A model generated the notes under the pieces. It worked only from the letters and a program-made list of their open reading frames with translations. It was not told where the DNA came from and did not search any database. DNA of 36,714 nt from positions 1-36,714 of IMG/VR virus record IMGVR_UViG_3300047560_000541; one strand, 5' to 3'. The position numbers and the translations under genes are program-made. Source of the stretch: a virus. Below, in pieces: positions 1 through 36,661 of the stretch (within the stretch, counting starts at the first letter, position 1; each line of letters opens with the position of its first letter).

Positions 1-50
1 GCGAGCGCGTAGAGGGCAATCATCAAAGCGAAGGTGAAAAAGTTTTTCAT
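1..50 (-). CDS. Partial small membrane protein, runs off window start
   Basis: An ATG at 48-50 opens a minus-strand frame beginning MKNFFTFALMIALYALA and still open at base 1. A GAGG Shine-Dalgarno lies about 7 nt upstream. The residues form one hydrophobic segment after a short basic start, like a signal anchor or small membrane protein. If the window is a closed circle, the frame continues into the last bases (36714 downward) for 41 residues and ends 23 nt inside the start of the ParB-methyltransferase gene. Function is unknown; a small phage membrane protein such as a holin-like or superinfection protein is possible but not shown. Confidence 0.45.
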   Translation of the reverse strand, partial: MKNFFTFALMIALYAL

Positions 51-96: not shown

Positions 97-240
97 TTAG
101 GCTGAAACAATCTTGGTGACGTGATAAACACGACCATCGAAGCCCCAGACCGTCGTGCCGTCGATATCCATAATCTTGAAAGGCTTGGAGCCTACTTTGT
201 TTTCGCGGACGATCTGGCCGATTTTGAAATTTGCGTTCAT
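97..240 (-). CDS. Small conserved-looking protein, 47 aa
   Basis: ATG at 238-240 follows an AAAGGAAG ribosome binding site; the TAA stop is at 97-99. The product begins MNANFKIGQIVRENK and contains FKIMDIDGTTVWGF. It looks like a small beta-rich domain (KIGQIV, KPFKIMDIDG, VYHVTKIV), superficially like short KOW/SH3-type or YodC-like proteins. It is the first gene downstream of the strong promoter at 290-318, so it should be well expressed when that promoter is on. No function is assigned. Confidence 0.6.
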   Translation of the reverse strand: MNANFKIGQIVRENKVGSKPFKIMDIDGTTVWGFDGRVYHVTKIVSA

Positions 241-289
241 CTTCCTTTCTCTTTGTTGGTGTTTCGGGCCATTCCCTCAACGTGGTGAA

Positions 290-318
290 ATTGTCCCTCT
301 AGTGTTGAATCCTGTCAA
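290..318 (-). promoter_or_regulatory. Strong sigma70-like promoter
   Basis: On the minus strand a perfect -35 TTGACA (plus 313-318) is followed by a 17-bp spacer and a -10 GACAAT (plus 290-295), about 50 nt upstream of the 47-aa gene. It lies between the end of the early operon (339) and the 47-aa gene. On a circular map it points toward the methyltransferase, terminase and the rest of the late block, so it could be a late or switch promoter. It is the best sigma70 match I saw in the window. Confidence 0.6.
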
Positions 319-322
319 CACT
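301..322. promoter_or_regulatory. Palindromic operator over the -35 box
   Basis: AGTGTTGA (301-308) and TCAACACT (315-322) are perfect 8-bp inverted arms with a 6-bp spacer. The right arm overlaps the -35 hexamer of the minus-strand promoter, so a dimeric repressor bound here would exclude RNA polymerase. I did not see a second copy elsewhere in the window. Confidence 0.55.
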
Positions 323-338
323 TACAAGCAAAAAAAGA

Positions 339-629
339 TCAGCGATTCCAAAGCGCTCGGATGATCGCGCGTAATTGCGCGCCGGCTTCGGCTCCACGCT
401 TGCGGTCGACGTGTTCGAGATATTCGCGACGACGCGAGAGCGTCTGCATCTTGATAACCGCCCGGGCCTCACATTCGAGCCGCCACTCCTCAGAATAGGA
501 ATCCACGACCCGGCCATCGTGAAGAGTGACCGGGGTGAATTCCCGACGCGGGAACGTGTTCCACGCCTCGGGGCGCTTAGAACGGAATGTCGGCGTCGTC
601 GGCGCTGGAGGAGTTCGGCGCGTAGCCAT
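339..629 (-). CDS. Small phage protein, 96 aa (DUF7696-like appearance)
   Basis: The ATG at 627-629 has a good AGGGAAG ribosome binding site, so I keep this start although it overlaps the SSB gene by 53 nt. The N-terminal ~25 residues are Pro/Thr/Arg-rich. The rest is a charged helical domain containing DGRVVDSYSEEWRLECEAR and RREYLEHVDRKRG. That SEEWR-ECEAR pattern is familiar from small uncharacterised phage proteins, I believe the DUF7696 type, but this is from memory. It is the last gene of the early operon. Function is unknown. Confidence 0.65.
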   Translation of the reverse strand: MATRRTPPAPTTPTFRSKRPEAWNTFPRREFTPVTLHDGRVVDSYSEEWRLECEARAVIKMQTLSRRREYLEHVDRKRGAEAGAQLRAIIRALWNR

Positions 630-888
630 TCGACTTCCCTGAGTTGTGCGCGTCTTGTTGTCCGTTGTCGTTGCGCGGCTCGAACATCGACAGAAGGATC
701 GACTCGCCGCCGCGACCGGATAGATCCGGAACGCCCGCCGGGTTGAACCACTTCGCCAGCATGATGAACTTGCCGCCGTCGTCGCCCTGCATGACCGCGC
801 CGACGTTTTGCCAGCGGCCTTTCTTGTTGCCGTTGCGGTCCTGATATTCGCCGGTCTTGACCGCGAGGTCGTATAGCTTCTTAGCCAT
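577..888 (-). CDS. ssb: Single-stranded DNA-binding-like protein, 103 aa
   Basis: The product starts MAKKLYDLAVKTGEY, has a beta-rich core (GRWQNVGAVMQGDDGGKFIMLAKWFNPAG) and then a Gly/Asn/Ser-rich linker. It ends DDADIPF, the acidic tip that in bacterial and phage SSBs recruits partner proteins. At about 100 residues it is shorter than E. coli SSB and resembles the compact phage type. Its ATG lies within the last codons of the 54-aa gene (8-nt overlap), implying translational coupling. Sitting with a nuclease and a RecA-like ATPase, it probably coats ssDNA in phage replication or recombination. Confidence 0.75.
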   Translation of the reverse strand: MAKKLYDLAVKTGEYQDRNGNKKGRWQNVGAVMQGDDGGKFIMLAKWFNPAGVPDLSGRGGESILLSMFEPRNDNGQQDAHNSGKSNGYAPNSSSADDADIPF

Positions 889-4186: not shown

Positions 4187-5082
4187 GCGCGCGCCCCCTC
4201 GAACTTCTTCGCATACCAAACGGGGACGCTGATTGGCTGGATCTTCGACGAGTAACCCGGCCACTCGCCGGACGTGTGCCCACGATGTAGCCGCTCAAGG
4301 TTCGCCCGATACTCGAAGCGTCCGAGCTCGCGAGCCTCGTCGTCGAGACGATAGACCGCGACCGCGTATGGCGGTTTCTTCTCCACCACGAGGAACACGA
4401 ACTCGCGCGGGCGTTCAATCTTCGCGCCGCTTTGTCCGACCGCGTGCCCCGTGCCGTCGAGATAGAACGCGTCTTGGACGTGGTAGCGCCACTTGGCGAT
4501 AGATCGGTCGAACTCTTCGGGACTTGCGTCCTCGGTCGTCTTGACGTCGACGATGATCCCGTCCTCGCGCCAGAAGTCAGGACGACAGCGCAACAGGAGC
4601 CCGGTTGCGGGGTCGTTCCAATAGGCGGATGCTTCAGCGACGCCGGGGACGCTAGTCAAAAGAGCGAACGCGGCGGGATGCTTGTAGACCGTGGCGACCA
4701 TTGCTTTAAGCGTGTCGAGGTCCTCTTGGCTGATCTGCTCCTTGCCAGCGTTTTTCGCGTCGAAGGAGTCCCAAAAATAGATAGCCTCGATTGTCTCCGC
4801 GCTCGGTTTCTTTGCGTTGCGTTGCCCGCTCGTTGGTCGCTTTGGCGCGTCGGTCGGCGTGACGACGTAGCGATCAGCAAAACACGCGGGCTCCAGAAGC
4901 GCCGTGTGGAACGCCGATCCGATGAACTGCGCGGCGGTTTGTTCGCGGTTGTCGTTCGCCGCGTCCTTGTTGGTTTTGTAATGCAACAGCGACCGATTAA
5001 CGCGGTCGAGATCAGACTTAGAGTCGCCGGGTCCCCCGTGGTACTCCTCATTTGCTAGGTCGTAGTAGATGCCAGCTTGCAT
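4183..5082 (-). CDS. PDDEXK exonuclease, RecE-like (DUF3799 type), 299 aa
   Basis: The start is ATG 5080-5082 (MQAGIYYDLANEEYH) with GAGGT 4 nt upstream; the open frame extends further up but that part is the control region. Family hallmarks are GSAFHTALLEP (H59), RCRPDFW (D169), IIVDVKTT (D179, K181) and YHVQDAFYLDG (Q203). Together these form a lambda-exonuclease/RecE-type PDDEXK core with the D-DxK triad and the downstream Q/Y helix. It is the first gene of the leftward early operon and probably resects dsDNA ends to give ssDNA for the SSB and RecA-like ATPase. Confidence 0.85.
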   Translation of the reverse strand: MQAGIYYDLANEEYHGGPGDSKSDLDRVNRSLLHYKTNKDAANDNREQTAAQFIGSAFHTALLEPACFADRYVVTPTDAPKRPTSGQRNAKKPSAETIEAIYFWDSFDAKNAGKEQISQEDLDTLKAMVATVYKHPAAFALLTSVPGVAEASAYWNDPATGLLLRCRPDFWREDGIIVDVKTTEDASPEEFDRSIAKWRYHVQDAFYLDGTGHAVGQSGAKIERPREFVFLVVEKKPPYAVAVYRLDDEARELGRFEYRANLERLHRGHTSGEWPGYSSKIQPISVPVWYAKKFEGARA

Positions 5083-5220
5083 AGTTACCTCGTTATCCGA
5101 GTGATTGTTTGTGATTGTTGTGCGTCTTGCGTGACGCGGCGTGAAGTATACACGCTCTGCAACCGTGTGCGTCACTTCGAGACAATGAAACGAGAAAAAT
5201 GCGTTAGTCAACCGACTCGG

Positions 5221-5226
5221 TATAAT
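5221..5226 (+). promoter_or_regulatory. TATAAT -10 box for helicase gene
   Basis: A consensus TATAAT lies 44 bp upstream of the helicase GTG. No convincing -35 is found at 16-18 bp, so the promoter may need an activator or be weak. Confidence 0.4.
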
Positions 5227-5258
5227 TCATGCCCGCGTAATCAATGCATCATGAATTA
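5223..5258. promoter_or_regulatory. 9-bp inverted repeat over the helicase -10 region
   Basis: TAATTCATG (5223-5231) and CATGAATTA (5250-5258) are perfect 9-bp inverted arms separated by 18 bp. The left arm overlaps the TATAAT box and the right arm abuts the helicase ribosome binding site. This placement suits an operator. Confidence 0.5.
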
Positions 5259-5270
5259 GGGTGAACGAAC

Positions 5271-6680
5271 GTGGTTAGGTTGCAACTCCGCGACTATCAA
5301 ATGGAGATCGTGGACAAGGCGAGAAACGCGCTGAAAGTGTCTCGTCGTGTCCTTGTCCAAGCTCCGACCGGCGCGGGAAAGACCGCGCTTGCCTCCTATA
5401 TTTCAAGCGGGGCCGCATCCCGTGGCACGGTCTGGTTCGTCTGCCATCGCGCCGAACTTGTCGCGCAGACGAGTTACACTTTTGGCAAATTTGGGATTGT
5501 CCACGGATTTATCGCGTCGGGCTATCCATACGATCAGCGCCACTCGGTGTTCATCTGCTCGATCGACACGCTTAAAAACCGCCTCGGGATCGTTGCGCCG
5601 CCTCGGTTGATTATCTTCGACGAATGCCACCACCTCGGGGCGGCGGGTTGGACGCGCGTGCAGGAAGCCTTCCCGAACGCATGGAACATCGGCCTGTCGG
5701 CGACCCCCCAGAGGCTCGACGGGAAAGGGCTCGGCGCGAACTTCGACGAGATCGTTCTGGGGCCTTCGGTCGCTTGGTTGATCGAGCAAGGCCACCTCTC
5801 ACAATATCGTGCATACGCCCCGAGCGCCCCGGACATGTCGGGCGTGAAAAGGTCGATGGGCGACTATTCGAAGTCGGAGACAGAGAAGCGCGCCGACACG
5901 CCGACCTTGACCGGCGACGCGATCAGCCATTGGCGGAAACATGCGCCTGGACTTCGATCTGTAGCTTTCGGCGTGACTGTGGCGCACTCTCAGCATATTG
6001 CGGAACAATTCCGAGCCGCCGGGATCCCCGCCGCGCATCTTGACGGGACCACGCCGAAGTTCGAACGCGCGAGGATCGTCCGCGACTTTGCGTCGGGGGA
6101 TCTCGTGGTGCTCTCGAACGTCGACCTCTTCGGCGAGGGGTTCGACTTGTCGGCGATCGCCCAGAGGGACGTCACGATCGATTGCGTTCTCCAAATGAGG
6201 CCGACCCAATCGCTCGCGCTCCACCTCCAGCAAGTCGGGCGAGCGTTACGCCCTGCCCCGGGCAAGACGGCGATTATCCTCGACCACGCTGGAAACATGC
6301 ACCGCCACGGCTTACCCGACGAGGACCGCGACTGGTCGCTCGAAGGGCGCGAGGCGAAGAAAAAGGCCGCGAACGATAACGGGCCCCCGCCGCCGATAAC
6401 GTGCGACGGTTGCTTCGGTCAGATACGCCGACCGGCTCCGCCCGAGTGCCCCTATTGCGGGAAGCGGATCGCGCCGAACGTGCGCGAGGTCACGGTTGGC
6501 GACGGCGAATTGAAGGAAATCACGGAGCGCGAAAAGATCGAGATCCGGAACCGGCGGATCCGTGAACAGGCGGAAGCCCAAACGATGAACGATCTCGTGG
6601 CGCTCGGAGAGTCGCGCGGCTACTCGAACCCGAAGGGATGGGCCTACCGTGTATTCAACAATCGGAGACGCCGCGCCTAA
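5271..6680 (+). CDS. SF2 DNA helicase (DECH-box), 469 aa
   Basis: A GTG start at 5271 follows TTAGGGTG. Helicase motifs occur in order: Q-like LRDYQ (6-10), Walker A APTGAGKT (31-38), Walker B DECH (117-120), motif III SAT (143-145), a second RecA domain, and motif VI QVGRALRP (321-328). A four-cysteine zinc ribbon (C378, C381, C393, C396) and a charged helical C-terminus follow. This matches phage DEAD/DEAH-like SF2 helicases related to UvsW/RadD used in replication or recombination. It is the only gene on the plus strand, and its end overlaps the convergent dioxygenase gene by 4 nt. Confidence 0.88.
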   Translation: MVRLQLRDYQMEIVDKARNALKVSRRVLVQAPTGAGKTALASYISSGAASRGTVWFVCHRAELVAQTSYTFGKFGIVHGFIASGYPYDQRHSVFICSIDTLKNRLGIVAPPRLIIFDECHHLGAAGWTRVQEAFPNAWNIGLSATPQRLDGKGLGANFDEIVLGPSVAWLIEQGHLSQYRAYAPSAPDMSGVKRSMGDYSKSETEKRADTPTLTGDAISHWRKHAPGLRSVAFGVTVAHSQHIAEQFRAAGIPAAHLDGTTPKFERARIVRDFASGDLVVLSNVDLFGEGFDLSAIAQRDVTIDCVLQMRPTQSLALHLQQVGRALRPAPGKTAIILDHAGNMHRHGLPDEDRDWSLEGREAKKKAANDNGPPPPITCDGCFGQIRRPAPPECPYCGKRIAPNVREVTVGDGELKEITEREKIEIRNRRIREQAEAQTMNDLVALGESRGYSNPKGWAYRVFNNRRRRA

Positions 6681-8898: not shown

Positions 8899-8962
8899 TA
8901 TTTTCTTGGGGTTAAGTGAAGAGGCGTGAACCCGAGTGACCGGGGATTATACAGATTTTCCC

Positions 8963-9009
8963 GACTACGAATCTGGGGGTCAGAGGTTCGAATCCTTTCG
9001 GGCGCGCCA
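8963..9009 (+). other. attP: attP core: 3' part of tRNA-Arg(ACG)
   Basis: The sequence starts at the anticodon arm (loop CTACGAA at 8965-8971, anticodon ACG at 8967-8969) and runs through the variable loop, the T-arm (loop TTCGAAT) and the acceptor 3' strand to CCA at 9007-9009. The D-arm and 5' acceptor strand are absent, so it is not a full tRNA gene. The left part of the anticodon stem carries a mismatch, suggesting that identity with the host gene begins near 8963. Integration here would rebuild a complete host tRNA-Arg. Confidence 0.8.
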
Positions 9010-9060
9010 CTTAAAAATCAAACACTTCCGCGAAGATTGAGAGAGACCCAAAAACGGGCT

Positions 9061-9081
9061 TGGGTGCACTTCTGGGTGCAC
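9061..9081 (+). repeat. attP arm-type sites, right pair
   Basis: TGGGTGCAC at 9061-9069 and again at 9073-9081 repeats the left pair with the same 12-bp period and orientation, 237 bp away. An inverted half site (ACCCAA at 9046-9051) lies just to its left. Confidence 0.75.
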
Positions 9082-9104
9082 TAAGGGAAACGCATCACGC
9101 GGGG

Positions 9105-24095: not shown

Positions 24096-24506
24096 TCAAG
24101 CCGCCGGCTTGCCCGTTTGTCCGCTACCCGGCTGAACTTGTCCGTGCTTGTGATCCTTGAGGCTCACGGATCCCGCTTGCACGTCGCCGTCCGCCTTAAT
24201 GTCGCCCGTGAACTTCGCCGTGGGCGTGTCGATCTTGAGTTCCCCGGTCGCTTTGATCTCGGCGTTCTTACAGTTGATGACGACCTTTCCTTCCTTTGCC
24301 GCCGTAACTGTGAGCGTGTGGGTTTCCGCGTTGAACTCGACCACGGAGCCGTCCGGGTAAACCGTCCGGTCCTGATACTTCGACGTGCCGCCGTGCGGAT
24401 ACTTGTCCTGATAGATCGAGCCGAGCACGACGCCGTGCTCCAGTTCACCGCCTGGACACGCGATTACGACTTGCTCGCCGGGGCGTGGCGGGTTCCATCG
24501 CCGCAC
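24096..24506 (-). pseudogene. V: gpV baseplate spike, C-terminal part (frameshifted), up to 136 aa
   Basis: RRWNPPRPGEQVVIACPGGELEHGVVLGSIY is the second half of the OB domain of P2 gpV. YPDGSVVEFNAETHTLTV, a short beta-helix and a C-terminal KDHKHG metal-binding-like tip follow. A GTG at 24504-24506 could open this frame but has no clear ribosome binding site. The domain boundary falls in mid-fold, so it is more likely the rear part of a gene interrupted by a frameshift near 24526 than a separate gene. Confidence 0.75.
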
Positions 24507-24663
24507 GGGTCCCGCACGCGAAGTGAATCCAGTCGGACACGACGCCGCCGGCGCGAACCTTGACGAGCCCCTTTTCCGTGTCGAGCTCCACGACGGATCC
24601 CACGCGGATCATGTTCGAGATCATCCGCGCGTGTTCGCTGATCGCGAAGGCTTCGGCGCTCAC
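24445..24663 (-). pseudogene. V: gpV baseplate spike, N-terminal part (frameshifted), 72 aa
   Basis: A GTG start at 24661-24663 overlaps the upstream stop (GTGA). The product reads SEHARMISNMIRVGSVVELD and VRAGGVVSDWI, matching the start of gpV. It then leaves the family pattern (HFACGTRAAMEP) and ends early. Removing one T of ATTC (plus 24526-24527) gives DWITSRAGPVRRWNPP, which joins both halves into one protein of 188 aa of the expected gpV layout. The causes could be a sequencing error, a real disabling mutation or, less likely, recoding. Confidence 0.75.
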
Positions 24664-32431: not shown

Positions 32432-34386
32432 TTTGTCGCAAAATTCCCCCGCCGTTTGAGGGATTTCGAGCGCTTAATTTTCCTGACAGTCTCGGCAACA
32501 GTCGGCGGGTTTTCCTCTTGCGGGTTTTCCTTGGGAATTTGGGGGCTCGCGTCCCATTCTCCCGAGTGATTTTTCCGCGCTTCGAGGATCCTTTCGAGCC
32601 GTTCCGCCGCCCTTCTGAACGACGGATTGACGATTTTCAGCGCCGCGAGCGCGTAAACACGACAGTCCAGGCCCTCATTTCGGGGCCTTGTCTTGTGCCA
32701 CTCGCGCACGGGGAACCCTTTGACGTAGCGCGTGAGCAATTTTTCGGCGGTCAACTGCTTATACCAGTCGGGATCCCGGTCCATCGGCGTGTGACAGTAG
32801 CCCGGGCCCGGGTTTTTGACCGCGAGCCGCCGCATCACGGTAAGTTTCGCCTCGTCGACGCCCACAAGGAACAGGTCGACCTTTCGTTTCGTCTTGCCCG
32901 ACTGCTTTCGGCTCGGAGCGGCGACGATCGGACGTCCCCAACCGGCGACGCCCTTAATGCCGAAGATCCGACGCCCCGTTTTACCCCGGAGCCACTCGTA
33001 AGCCGCCTGAGTGTTGCCGCCCGTGCCGCCGGTATCCACGCAAGCCCCAGAGATCGACAGGTGCGCGCCGGTTTCGTGGAGCCAAGTCGTCGAAAGGTGC
33101 TCTTCGAGGTCGTCCCACACGTCCGCCTGAAGGGGATCGCCCCAAAAAACCGAGTAATCGACGGACCACGACTCCTCGCCGTGACCCCATGCGACGATCT
33201 CGCACTCCAGTCGATCGGGTTGCATGTCGACGCCGGCAGTCAGAACGAGCCCTCCAGCCGGCACGGGGGCGATATATTCCTCGCGGCGCGCCATCAGGGT
33301 GTCCGGATCCGCCGTTTCGCCCTGCTCCTCCCACGTCTCGGCAAGCGATACGTTGGTGAACGTCTGGAGGTCGTTCGTCGCCTTCTTGTCGAGGTAGGAC
33401 TGCACGATGTCCCGGAGCCGCCGAAACGTCGAGTAGAGCTCGTTCAAATGGTAGGACGCGTGCCCTTTGAACGGCTTCTCGGCCTTCCAGCCGTGCCCGT
33501 CACGCTCGGCGGTCCTGATCGCCGCGATCCTTTGCCCGTCTCCCCAGAGTGAGCCGCAATGGGGGCACGCGTAGCGCGCCGTCGCCGGGAATTGCTCGTC
33601 GTCGGGCGTTTCCTTGCCGTCCCACACGACTTGATCCCATCGGAGCGGTTGCGGGGTCCTGCAATCGGGGCACGCGACGTGAAATTGGCGCTTGTCGCCG
33701 GCCTCGTAAGCGTCGTCGATGTAGCTCTCGCCCTTGATCGTGGGCGTCGAAATCTCGATCAGAAAGCGCTGATCCCCGAACGTCGCGGCGCGTTGCCACA
33801 AAAGGCCGACCGGATGCCCTTCGTCCGTGACCTCGTAGCCGTCCACTTCGTCGCAAACGATCAGCGGAGCGGAGCGCCCGCGCATGGTTTTGGGGGATCC
33901 GGACCACGAGAACATCAGGAAGCCCCCCGCGTAGGACTTCATCTTCTGGTTGTTCACGCCCTCGCGCCCGCGCGGCTTGGCGATCAGCCGTTCGAGCTCC
34001 TCGTTTGCCGAGACGAGCGGGTTAAATTTGGTTTCGAGCCATGTCTGAACGTCGCCCTGCGATGGTTGCATCATCATCTGCGATCGGGGCTCGACTTCGA
34101 TGCAATAGCCCTGCACGCATAGCGCGAGCATGGTTTTCCCGACCTGAGCGCCCCACTTGAGCGTGATCCGTTGGCAATCCGGATCGACGAGCATGTCCAT
34201 TGGCTCGCGCTGGTATGGCGCGTTCGCCAATCGGAGCGGACCCGGGAGGGCGTTCCCGATGGGGATCTTGACCGACGCTTCCGCCCACTCGCTCGGGAGG
34301 ACGTTCGCCGGCGGGCGGAGCATCTTCTGAGCGCGCTTGATCGCGTTCGCGACCCCGGCGGGGTTCCGGTAGCGCTTGACGTTCAT
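32425..34386 (-). CDS. terL: Terminase large subunit, GpA family, 653 aa
   Basis: The ATPase has a Walker A-like WGAQVGKT (78-85) and Walker B PLIVCDEVDGY (D179, E180). A zinc-binding insertion has CPDC and CPHC. The nuclease domain starts with AGVDMQPDRLECEIVAWG (catalytic Asp) and includes ACVDTGGTGGNT. It packages DNA into the prohead and cuts it; lambda GpA-type enzymes generate cos ends. The C-terminal tail contains copy 4 of the 20-bp motif in coding sequence, read as KENPQEENPP, and is basic after it. The start overlaps terS by 4 nt. Confidence 0.96.
   Translation of the reverse strand: MNVKRYRNPAGVANAIKRAQKMLRPPANVLPSEWAEASVKIPIGNALPGPLRLANAPYQREPMDMLVDPDCQRITLKWGAQVGKTMLALCVQGYCIEVEPRSQMMMQPSQGDVQTWLETKFNPLVSANEELERLIAKPRGREGVNNQKMKSYAGGFLMFSWSGSPKTMRGRSAPLIVCDEVDGYEVTDEGHPVGLLWQRAATFGDQRFLIEISTPTIKGESYIDDAYEAGDKRQFHVACPDCRTPQPLRWDQVVWDGKETPDDEQFPATARYACPHCGSLWGDGQRIAAIRTAERDGHGWKAEKPFKGHASYHLNELYSTFRRLRDIVQSYLDKKATNDLQTFTNVSLAETWEEQGETADPDTLMARREEYIAPVPAGGLVLTAGVDMQPDRLECEIVAWGHGEESWSVDYSVFWGDPLQADVWDDLEEHLSTTWLHETGAHLSISGACVDTGGTGGNTQAAYEWLRGKTGRRIFGIKGVAGWGRPIVAAPSRKQSGKTKRKVDLFLVGVDEAKLTVMRRLAVKNPGPGYCHTPMDRDPDWYKQLTAEKLLTRYVKGFPVREWHKTRPRNEGLDCRVYALAALKIVNPSFRRAAERLERILEARKNHSGEWDASPQIPKENPQEENPPTVAETVRKIKRSKSLKRRGNFATNW
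32511..32530 (-). repeat. 20-bp motif copy 4, inside terL end
   Basis: Minus-strand GGAAAACCCGCAAGAGGAAA, 80 bp before the start of the 182-aa gene, within the last 35 codons of terL. Unlike the other copies it lies in coding sequence. The 11-mer GGAAAACCCGC is directly repeated here. Confidence 0.65.
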
Positions 34387-34908: not shown

Positions 34909-35118
34909 TCAGCGCCCCAACCGATTGAACACGCGCCGGAGAGCGTAGGACCGGACGAGGGAGACGACCGTGAACAGACCCCCGATTGCCAAGTGATCCG
35001 ACGCCGCGACGTGGATCCCGAAGAGCGGGAAGATCACCGCCTGAGCGCCAACCGCCACGAAATAACCGACGGCGACGTTCGCGAGCGACTCGAACGCCGA
35101 CCACTTACGCGACTGCAC
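34909..35118 (-). CDS. Two-helix membrane protein, DUF7220-like, 69 aa
   Basis: A GTG start at 35116-35118 lies inside the end of the methyltransferase gene. The product begins (M)QSRKWSAFESLANVAVGY and has two hydrophobic helices (about 11-32 and 40-58), then a basic end SYALRRVFNRLGR. The pattern SR-x-S-x-x-ES-x-NV-VGY...RSY-LRR-F is common in phages near terminase genes (DUF7220 as I recall). Topology would allow a holin-like role, but that is not established. Confidence 0.75.
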   Translation of the reverse strand: MQSRKWSAFESLANVAVGYFVAVGAQAVIFPLFGIHVAASDHLAIGGLFTVVSLVRSYALRRVFNRLGR

Positions 35119-36661
35119 GGGTCCTCTCGCGGTTGAGCTCGTCGAATGTCTGCCCGGTCGCTTCGAGGATCGCGTCCCGCCCGGTGAACGCTTGCCAGCG
35201 GCGAACGATCACGTCGACGTATTGCCCCTGCAGTTCCATTGCGTAGCAGACGCGCCCGGTTTTCTCCGCGCCCATGAGGGTTGAACCGCTCCCGCCGAAC
35301 GGCTCGACGCATAGCCCGCCCTCGGGGAGACTCGCCCGCATGACGCGTTCCATCATTGCGACCGGCTTCGGCGTGGCGTGTCCGTGGCGCTCGTCGCCAA
35401 CTACCCGCTCGAACTCCCAGACGTCGCGCATGACGTCGTGCGCGTTGTCGAAATAGCTCCGCGCTCCTTGAATCTCGCTCGTCGGTCCGCCTTTCACGGT
35501 GTCCCATTCCTTCTTGAGCTCCTTCCACGGGCGCGCAAAATGGCCGGGATATTCCGCCGCGAGCTTCTTGTAGTGCTTCTCGGGGATCAGGTTGAACTGC
35601 GAGCGCGTGAACCAATGCGAGAACATCTGACAGCCGCAGACGCGCTCGATGTCCTTTCGATTGATGCCGGCGGCGTTGGCTTGGCCCTCCATGTAAGACC
35701 GGAGCGGCTCCCATGTCTCGGGGAAATCGTCGGTGTTCACATTGCCACGGAACTGGTTCCCCAACTGGAAATAGAGACAGCGCTCGGTCGCGATGGGGAA
35801 TTGCGTGAGATCCGGCGAAGCCATGCCCGCGATGCTCTTCTTGTCCCAGACGATCTCGTTCCGGAGCTCGATCTTTTCAGAGTCCCCGAGCCCGCCGCGA
35901 TACCAAAGCCTCCAGAGGTCCGGGGCGTTCCCCCAGATATACGCGCTCGCGTTGCCCGCCGCGAAGGTCCGAAACGTCGCCCACCATGCCATCTGGAACT
36001 GGTCGAGCTCTTCCCGGTAGATGTTGTCGTTCGCCACACCGTCGGCTTGCTTCCCCATACCGTAAGGCGGGTCGGCGTGGATCAACTGAGCGACCGCGCC
36101 GCCCATCAGGCGTTCGACGTCAGTAACGCTCGTCGAGTCTCCGCACATGACGCGATGATCGCCGAGCACCCATACGTCGCCGGCGACGGAAATCGGATCC
36201 TTTGCCTCGGGGATCTCGTCCGGATCCGTGAGCCCCTTCTCCTCTTCCTCCTCCTCGATCATCAGCTTTGCGAGCTCGTCCTCGCTGAACCCGGTCAGGG
36301 ATAAATCGAAGTCGCGCTCCTCCAGTTCGCCGAGCTCCAGCGCCAGCAGTTCGTCGTCCCACCCGGCGTTCAGCGCGAGCTTGTTATCCGCAATGACGTA
36401 GGCGCGCCGTTGCGTTTCCGTGAGGTATCCGAGACGGATGCAAGGGACGAACTCGAGCCCGAGTTTTCGGGCCGCCATGACACGCCCGTGGCCGGCGATA
36501 ATGCCGCCCTCGTCGTCGATCAGGATTGGGTTGGTAAACCCGAATTCCTTAATGCTCGCGGCGATTTGCGCCACTTGCTCGTCGCTGTGCGTGCGCGAGT
36601 TCCGAGCGTAGGGGATCAGCGTTTCTAGCTGAAGTTCTTCAATCTGAATTTTTCGATCCAT
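35105..36661 (-). CDS. ParB-like nuclease/DNA methyltransferase fusion, 518 aa
   Basis: Residues 1-110 form a ParB/sulfiredoxin-like domain (LIPYARNSRTHSDEQVAQIAASI, GHGRVMAARKLG). A Glu-rich linker follows at 130-142. The methyltransferase then has the catalytic DPPY at 197-200 followed far downstream by the AdoMet-binding EPFGGSGST (453-461), the beta-class order. The enzyme should methylate adenine N6 or cytosine N4 in a short site, perhaps shielding phage DNA from host restriction. No partner endonuclease is present. GGTGG precedes the ATG, and a TATAAT lies about 30 bp upstream (plus 36691-36696). Confidence 0.93.
   Translation of the reverse strand: MDRKIQIEELQLETLIPYARNSRTHSDEQVAQIAASIKEFGFTNPILIDDEGGIIAGHGRVMAARKLGLEFVPCIRLGYLTETQRRAYVIADNKLALNAGWDDELLALELGELEERDFDLSLTGFSEDELAKLMIEEEEEEKGLTDPDEIPEAKDPISVAGDVWVLGDHRVMCGDSTSVTDVERLMGGAVAQLIHADPPYGMGKQADGVANDNIYREELDQFQMAWWATFRTFAAGNASAYIWGNAPDLWRLWYRGGLGDSEKIELRNEIVWDKKSIAGMASPDLTQFPIATERCLYFQLGNQFRGNVNTDDFPETWEPLRSYMEGQANAAGINRKDIERVCGCQMFSHWFTRSQFNLIPEKHYKKLAAEYPGHFARPWKELKKEWDTVKGGPTSEIQGARSYFDNAHDVMRDVWEFERVVGDERHGHATPKPVAMMERVMRASLPEGGLCVEPFGGSGSTLMGAEKTGRVCYAMELQGQYVDVIVRRWQAFTGRDAILEATGQTFDELNRERTRAVA

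Follow-up and report, generated by a model that had tools for sequence, protein, structure and literature searches.

A conserved palindrome over a sigma-70-type promoter as probable operator of a phage replication-lysis operon

A promoter and an interrupted palindrome between two operons

The window analysed here is the whole of a 36,714-nucleotide viral contig (IMG/VR record IMGVR_UViG_3300047560_000541), and the locus of interest lies close to its first base, where the genes are read on the minus strand. An upstream operon, encoding an exonuclease, an AAA_24 ATPase, an HTH_17 protein, a DksA-like zinc-finger protein, an SSB-like protein and a DUF7696 protein, finishes with the DUF7696 gene (PF24751; 339-629, minus strand), which has an orthologue in the related contig IMGVR_UViG_3300021233_000111 (G001), found in IMG/VR by searching with the SSB-like protein of the window (577-888). 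A hairpin on the minus strand at 342-368, followed by a T-run at about 331-337, could be a weak terminator of this operon. The corresponding element is stronger in G001, where a clear hairpin with a T-run ends the upstream operon directly before the promoter, in agreement with the first-pass annotation, which had placed the promoter at the edge of the early operon, the one running from exonuclease to DUF7696.

The predicted promoter runs from 318 to 290 on the minus strand and has the structure proposed for it, TTGACA-N17-GACAAT, with 10 of 12 matches to the promoter hexamers. It is the sole promoter in the window scoring at least 10/12. Its -10 hexamer GACAAT (290-295, minus strand), 17 bases from the -35 hexamer TTGACA (313-318, minus strand), matches at merely four of six positions, and the adjective "strong" that had been given to it is best taken as a prediction. 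Four bases of the -35 hexamer fall within one arm of a 22-bp palindrome (301-322), a candidate repressor operator of the form AGTGTTGA-N6-TCAACACT that reads AGTGTTGA-ATCCTG-TCAACACT on the plus strand and spans about -39 to -18, that is, the -35 hexamer plus most of the promoter spacer. Described originally as perfect over its 22 bp, it does have two perfectly paired 8-bp arms (16 bases), but the 6-base spacer between them is not itself palindromic, so that the palindrome is an interrupted one. No second copy was found elsewhere in the window when up to 3 mismatches were allowed. A palindrome with 8-bp arms is by itself unremarkable (10 in the window, against around 15 in simulated sequence), and the unusual part is its overlap with the promoter: a promoter scoring at least 10/12 and overlapped by such a palindrome appeared in none of 120 windows simulated with a first-order Markov model, a comparison designed after the site had been seen and to be used as a guide rather than as a strict test.

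Between the promoter and the first gene there is a 20-base leader block, CACCAACAAAGAGAAAGGAA (242-261, minus strand), with a likely ribosome-binding site. The first ORF of the controlled operon (97-240, minus strand; 47 aa) resembles the first ORF of G001 in its start region and has no Pfam or PHROG family match. It is followed by the start of a membrane-protein-like ORF, MKNFFTFALMIALYALA (1-50, minus strand), which resembles the uncut MKNAILLALMFALFALV of G001 and is cut by the contig end, so the window stops inside a gene some 300 bases downstream of the promoter. In G001, the genes downstream of the palindrome promoter encode a VRR-NUC protein, a 60-aa HTH protein, a VapE primase, a late activator, a holin and a lysozyme, and in annotated relatives the order is VRR-NUC or resolvase, repressor, primase, late activator, holin, endolysin, spanin and terminase. 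When the primase, VRR-NUC, phrog_14341, late activator and endolysin proteins of G001, Persinger and Mica were used in tblastn searches, none was found in the window. From the ORF cut at the end, the modules absent from the window and the gene order in G001 and the annotated relatives, we judge the contig to be incomplete, with the promoter heading a replication-lysis operon. A closed circular genome was rejected, the window lacking end repeats and whole modules. The proposal that, on a circular map, the promoter borders the late block is thus not supported; G001 and the annotated relatives indicate that the replication, late-activator and lysis genes have their place downstream of it, and the contig lacks them. 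At the other end of the window, near the packaging genes and upstream of the small terminase, an ORF (35105-36661) was seen to encode a fusion of a ParB-like domain with an N6/N4 DNA methylase.

Conservation of the site in a related contig

G001 is collinear with the window, with about 65-84% DNA identity across the common genes, and its site reads AGTGTTGACATACTTCAACACT, then GACAAT. All 16 arm bases and both hexamers are unchanged, while three of the six bases of the palindrome spacer differ and one extra base brings the promoter spacing from 17 to 18; both promoters therefore have 10 of 12 hexamer matches at a spacing within the 16-18 bases of sigma-70 promoters. Between the end of the upstream operon and the start codon, alignment of the two contigs is patchy outside the palindrome and promoter, with the exception of the leader block, whose 20 bases are identical. 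This identity exceeds the length needed for a ribosome-binding site, and the 19-base core of the block has G001 as its sole match among IMG/VR contigs.

Since the arms were kept while the palindrome spacer and the promoter spacing changed, the palindrome appears to be conserved in its own right, beyond the needs of the promoter that it covers. Moreover, sigma-70 makes no use of the arm outside the -35 hexamer (301-308; TCAACACT on the minus strand) in recognising a promoter, so that the conservation of this arm speaks for binding by a second protein. The idea that the promoter is overlapped by an operator is in this way backed by position, by the rarity of the overlap and, most strongly, by conservation. 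The evidence of conservation comes from two phages, the window and G001, the only relative in which the exact palindrome is kept. A looser promoter pattern, run against all IMG/VR, also matched G001 only; other IMG/VR relatives with the SSB gene have a different downstream gene order and no such palindrome, and in GTDB genomes no match was obtained with the pattern or with the AAA_24 protein. Further IMG/VR contigs with the exact palindrome for the most part look unrelated, as if matching by coincidence, a scrambled control pattern having given 11.

Candidate repressors of the replication-lysis operon

Taken together, the sequence data make it probable (about 0.7) that this is a single-operator promoter of the replication-lysis operon, occluded by a dimeric HTH repressor that is probably phage-coded. 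The sigma-70-type promoter would drive the genes from replication to lysis, and the repressor, encoded, we infer, in the part of the genome missing from the contig, would bind the two AGTGTTGA half-sites, whose TTGA cores sit about one helical turn apart; once bound, it would cover the -35 hexamer and most of the spacer and keep RNA polymerase off. Covering about -39 to -18, the palindrome is placed as one would expect for repression by occlusion and not for activation, and it is very probably a repressor operator acting as an off-switch for the replication and lysis genes. Regulation of this kind is ordinary; it is also real, conserved and functionally plausible, and it provides a concrete candidate operator for the replication-lysis operon in a little-studied group of contractile-tailed phages. 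What is new is the corrected setting (a replication-lysis operon on an incomplete contig), the conservation of the site and the pattern linking helix and arms in phrog_14341 proteins described below. The binding protein is probably not encoded in the window, because this ends before the replication-lysis genes. The candidates for this role are the phrog_14341 60-aa HTH protein, through an autorepression that would be Cro-like or Aca-like, and a CI-type repressor.

That the phrog_14341 protein binds the palindrome, in a strict negative autoregulation of its operon, can be put forward tentatively. Its gene sits within the controlled operon of G001, a region missing from the window, and the protein belongs to phrog_14341, "transcriptional repressor" (E 6.6e-12), with 54% identity to Persinger gp52; its single-sequence fold is of low confidence (pLDDT 58). 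In other phages the phrog_14341 gene is located just before the primase gene and has a promoter to itself, with a palindrome across it. Where the palindrome covers the -10 hexamer with perfect arms, these are AATGCGCC...GGCGCATT in five ep3-like phages (ep3, KA2-1, ECO1230-10, Bas97 and PT1) and in MQ-4, GCGCCCAT...ATGGGCGC in Persinger and AATGGTCC...GGACCATT in Arya; in Phobos and PspYZU01 a palindrome with 8-bp arms, AGTTGTCC...GGACAACT, lies just upstream, in Mano and FoX2 the palindromes are shorter or imperfect, and in PPpW-3 and Mica none passed the scan. The arms vary with the putative recognition helix, Q-T-V going with GCGCC, S-T-V with GGTCC and K-T-V with TGTCC, so that the arm change tracks the residue before T-V (Q, S or K), in a set where several phages are close relatives and independent cases are therefore few. 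This pattern suggests that the phrog_14341 family autorepresses, and the resulting candidate repressor-operator pairs might show in what way repressor specificity is reset in these phages. According to the same rule, however, the helix of the G001 protein (PQTVRLW) should prefer arms of the GCGCC type and not AGTGTTGA, and a GCGCC-N9..12-GGCGC site is found neither in G001 nor in the window. Furthermore, the phrog_14341 gene of G001 has no promoter of its own, and a palindrome with helix-predicted arms over a -10 hexamer is not present directly upstream of it. Like the site studied here, the phrog_14341 promoters found in Jilinvirus phages, Persinger, Arya and MQ-4, which serve the repressor and primase genes, are overlapped by a palindrome, of 20-27 bp; they differ in that this palindrome has GCGCC or GGTCC arms and covers the -10 hexamer immediately before the repressor gene, whereas that of the window covers the -35 hexamer and spacer, has AGTGTTGA arms and, in G001, is about 2.5 kb upstream of the phrog_14341 gene.

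A similar arrangement is known for Aca proteins, in which an inverted repeat inside the core promoter has been shown experimentally to mediate autorepression (PMC9410906). Aca promoters share with the window site a single inverted repeat in a core sigma-70-type promoter and, considering G001, a small HTH gene in the operon. An acr-aca operon, on the other hand, needs an anti-CRISPR gene, and none was identified here, the first ORF of the window matching no Pfam or PHROG family; the repressor, too, is only putative.

Just as tentatively, the palindrome may be taken for the binding site of a lysogeny repressor of CI type (XRE plus S24-like), which would be encoded in an unseen part of the genome and block the replication and lysis genes in the prophage. 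Arya, HeidiAbel_Bas97, PT1 and MQ-4 have CI-like repressors with an identical recognition helix between exonuclease and helicase, and CGGTTGAT-NN-GAGTCAA is present in the CI-helicase gap of all four; these candidate CI sites have the GTTGA-N6-TCAA core of the window palindrome with the same spacing. The common core is nevertheless short (8-9 bases) and was found after many regions had been inspected. The window carries an integrase gene and is therefore plausibly from a temperate phage, but a CI homologue is absent from the window and from G001, and in both the exonuclease-helicase region is without the gene. The remark in the first-pass annotation that no CI-type repressor gene could be recognised is accordingly true of the window and extends to G001, with the qualification that both contigs are incomplete. 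In contrast to the candidate CI sites of Arya and MQ-4 and to lambda-type switches, the latter having a CI-type gene next to divergent promoters and several operators at early promoters, the palindrome is not beside a CI gene, occurs in one copy at one promoter and has no divergent promoter. An immunity switch beside a CI gene was dropped, as neither contig yielded a CI homologue; the more general "switch point" proposed earlier is possible, although one operator copy and a helicase-exonuclease region with neither a CI gene nor a candidate CI site speak against it. A phage repressor using one palindromic operator has a precedent in PY54 Cro (PMC4488713), whose operator, unlike the window palindrome, lies between divergent repressor genes. 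In L073, a relative found through its small terminase, no CI gene was present between the lysis genes and the terminase. Two further observations were made in these regions: exonuclease and helicase are directly divergent in the window (5080-5271) and in G001 (24371-24560), the CI or HTH gene that relatives have in between being absent, and a plus-strand ORF near the integrase (window 8926-9084) looks like a tRNA gene end (VRILSGAP) and could mark an attachment site.

Within the window, the 69-aa HTH protein (1551-1760) of the excisionase-like HTH_17 kind has the same recognition segment as its G001 counterpart, which fits binding to the palindrome; judged by its distribution it is a weak candidate, because most relatives carry such a protein without this palindrome.

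Readings outside phage repression

Sites of the CRP/FNR family have a TTGA-N6-TCAA-like geometry, into which the core of the palindrome fits. Control of the promoter by a host regulator of this or another family seems unlikely to us, considering that the outer AGTG/CACT bases are also conserved in G001 and that the promoters of this phage group mostly bear phage-specific palindromes.

We regard as slightly less probable an autoregulation of the operon by a replication initiator or origin-binding protein acting, in the manner of plasmid Rep proteins, on an inverted repeat akin to its iterons. In G001, nine repeats, AGTGTAGG or CCTACACT in direct and inverted orientation, were located at 33920-34183 (within 33901-34183; L052:14901-15183), in the gap that separates the primase gene from the late-activator start, and relatives have different repeat clusters at the same place; the G001 cluster is a possible origin or late-operator cluster. 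Its repeats have AGTGT-G in common with the operator arms, yet the similarity amounts to 6 of 8 bases and may be due to chance, no initiator was identified, and the repeats of relatives are unlike their promoter palindromes. We consider it highly improbable that one phage protein recognises both the operator arms and the AGTGTAGG repeats, as sites of two kinds; if it did, it would couple operon expression with origin firing and late-gene onset, and a temperate tailed phage would have a plasmid-Rep-like feedback. GTGACCA and GGTGACA clusters were noted in Persinger, Arya, ep3 and Mica, likewise ahead of the late activator.

The least credible explanation is an RNA hairpin or terminator, or a chance palindrome: read-through RNA could form an 8-bp stem, but this is AT-rich and has no T-run after it, in place of the GC-rich hairpin and T-run of intrinsic terminators, the palindrome is upstream of its own start site and preceded by a separate terminator-like element, no Rfam match was found, and conservation in G001 speaks against chance.

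In the Persinger record, a GAACCA-N7-TGGTTC pair was first read as operators and then dropped, as it lies within a 55-bp tandem duplication (L053:17928-18040) that is apparently helicase coding sequence; the annotated start of this helicase looks too late.
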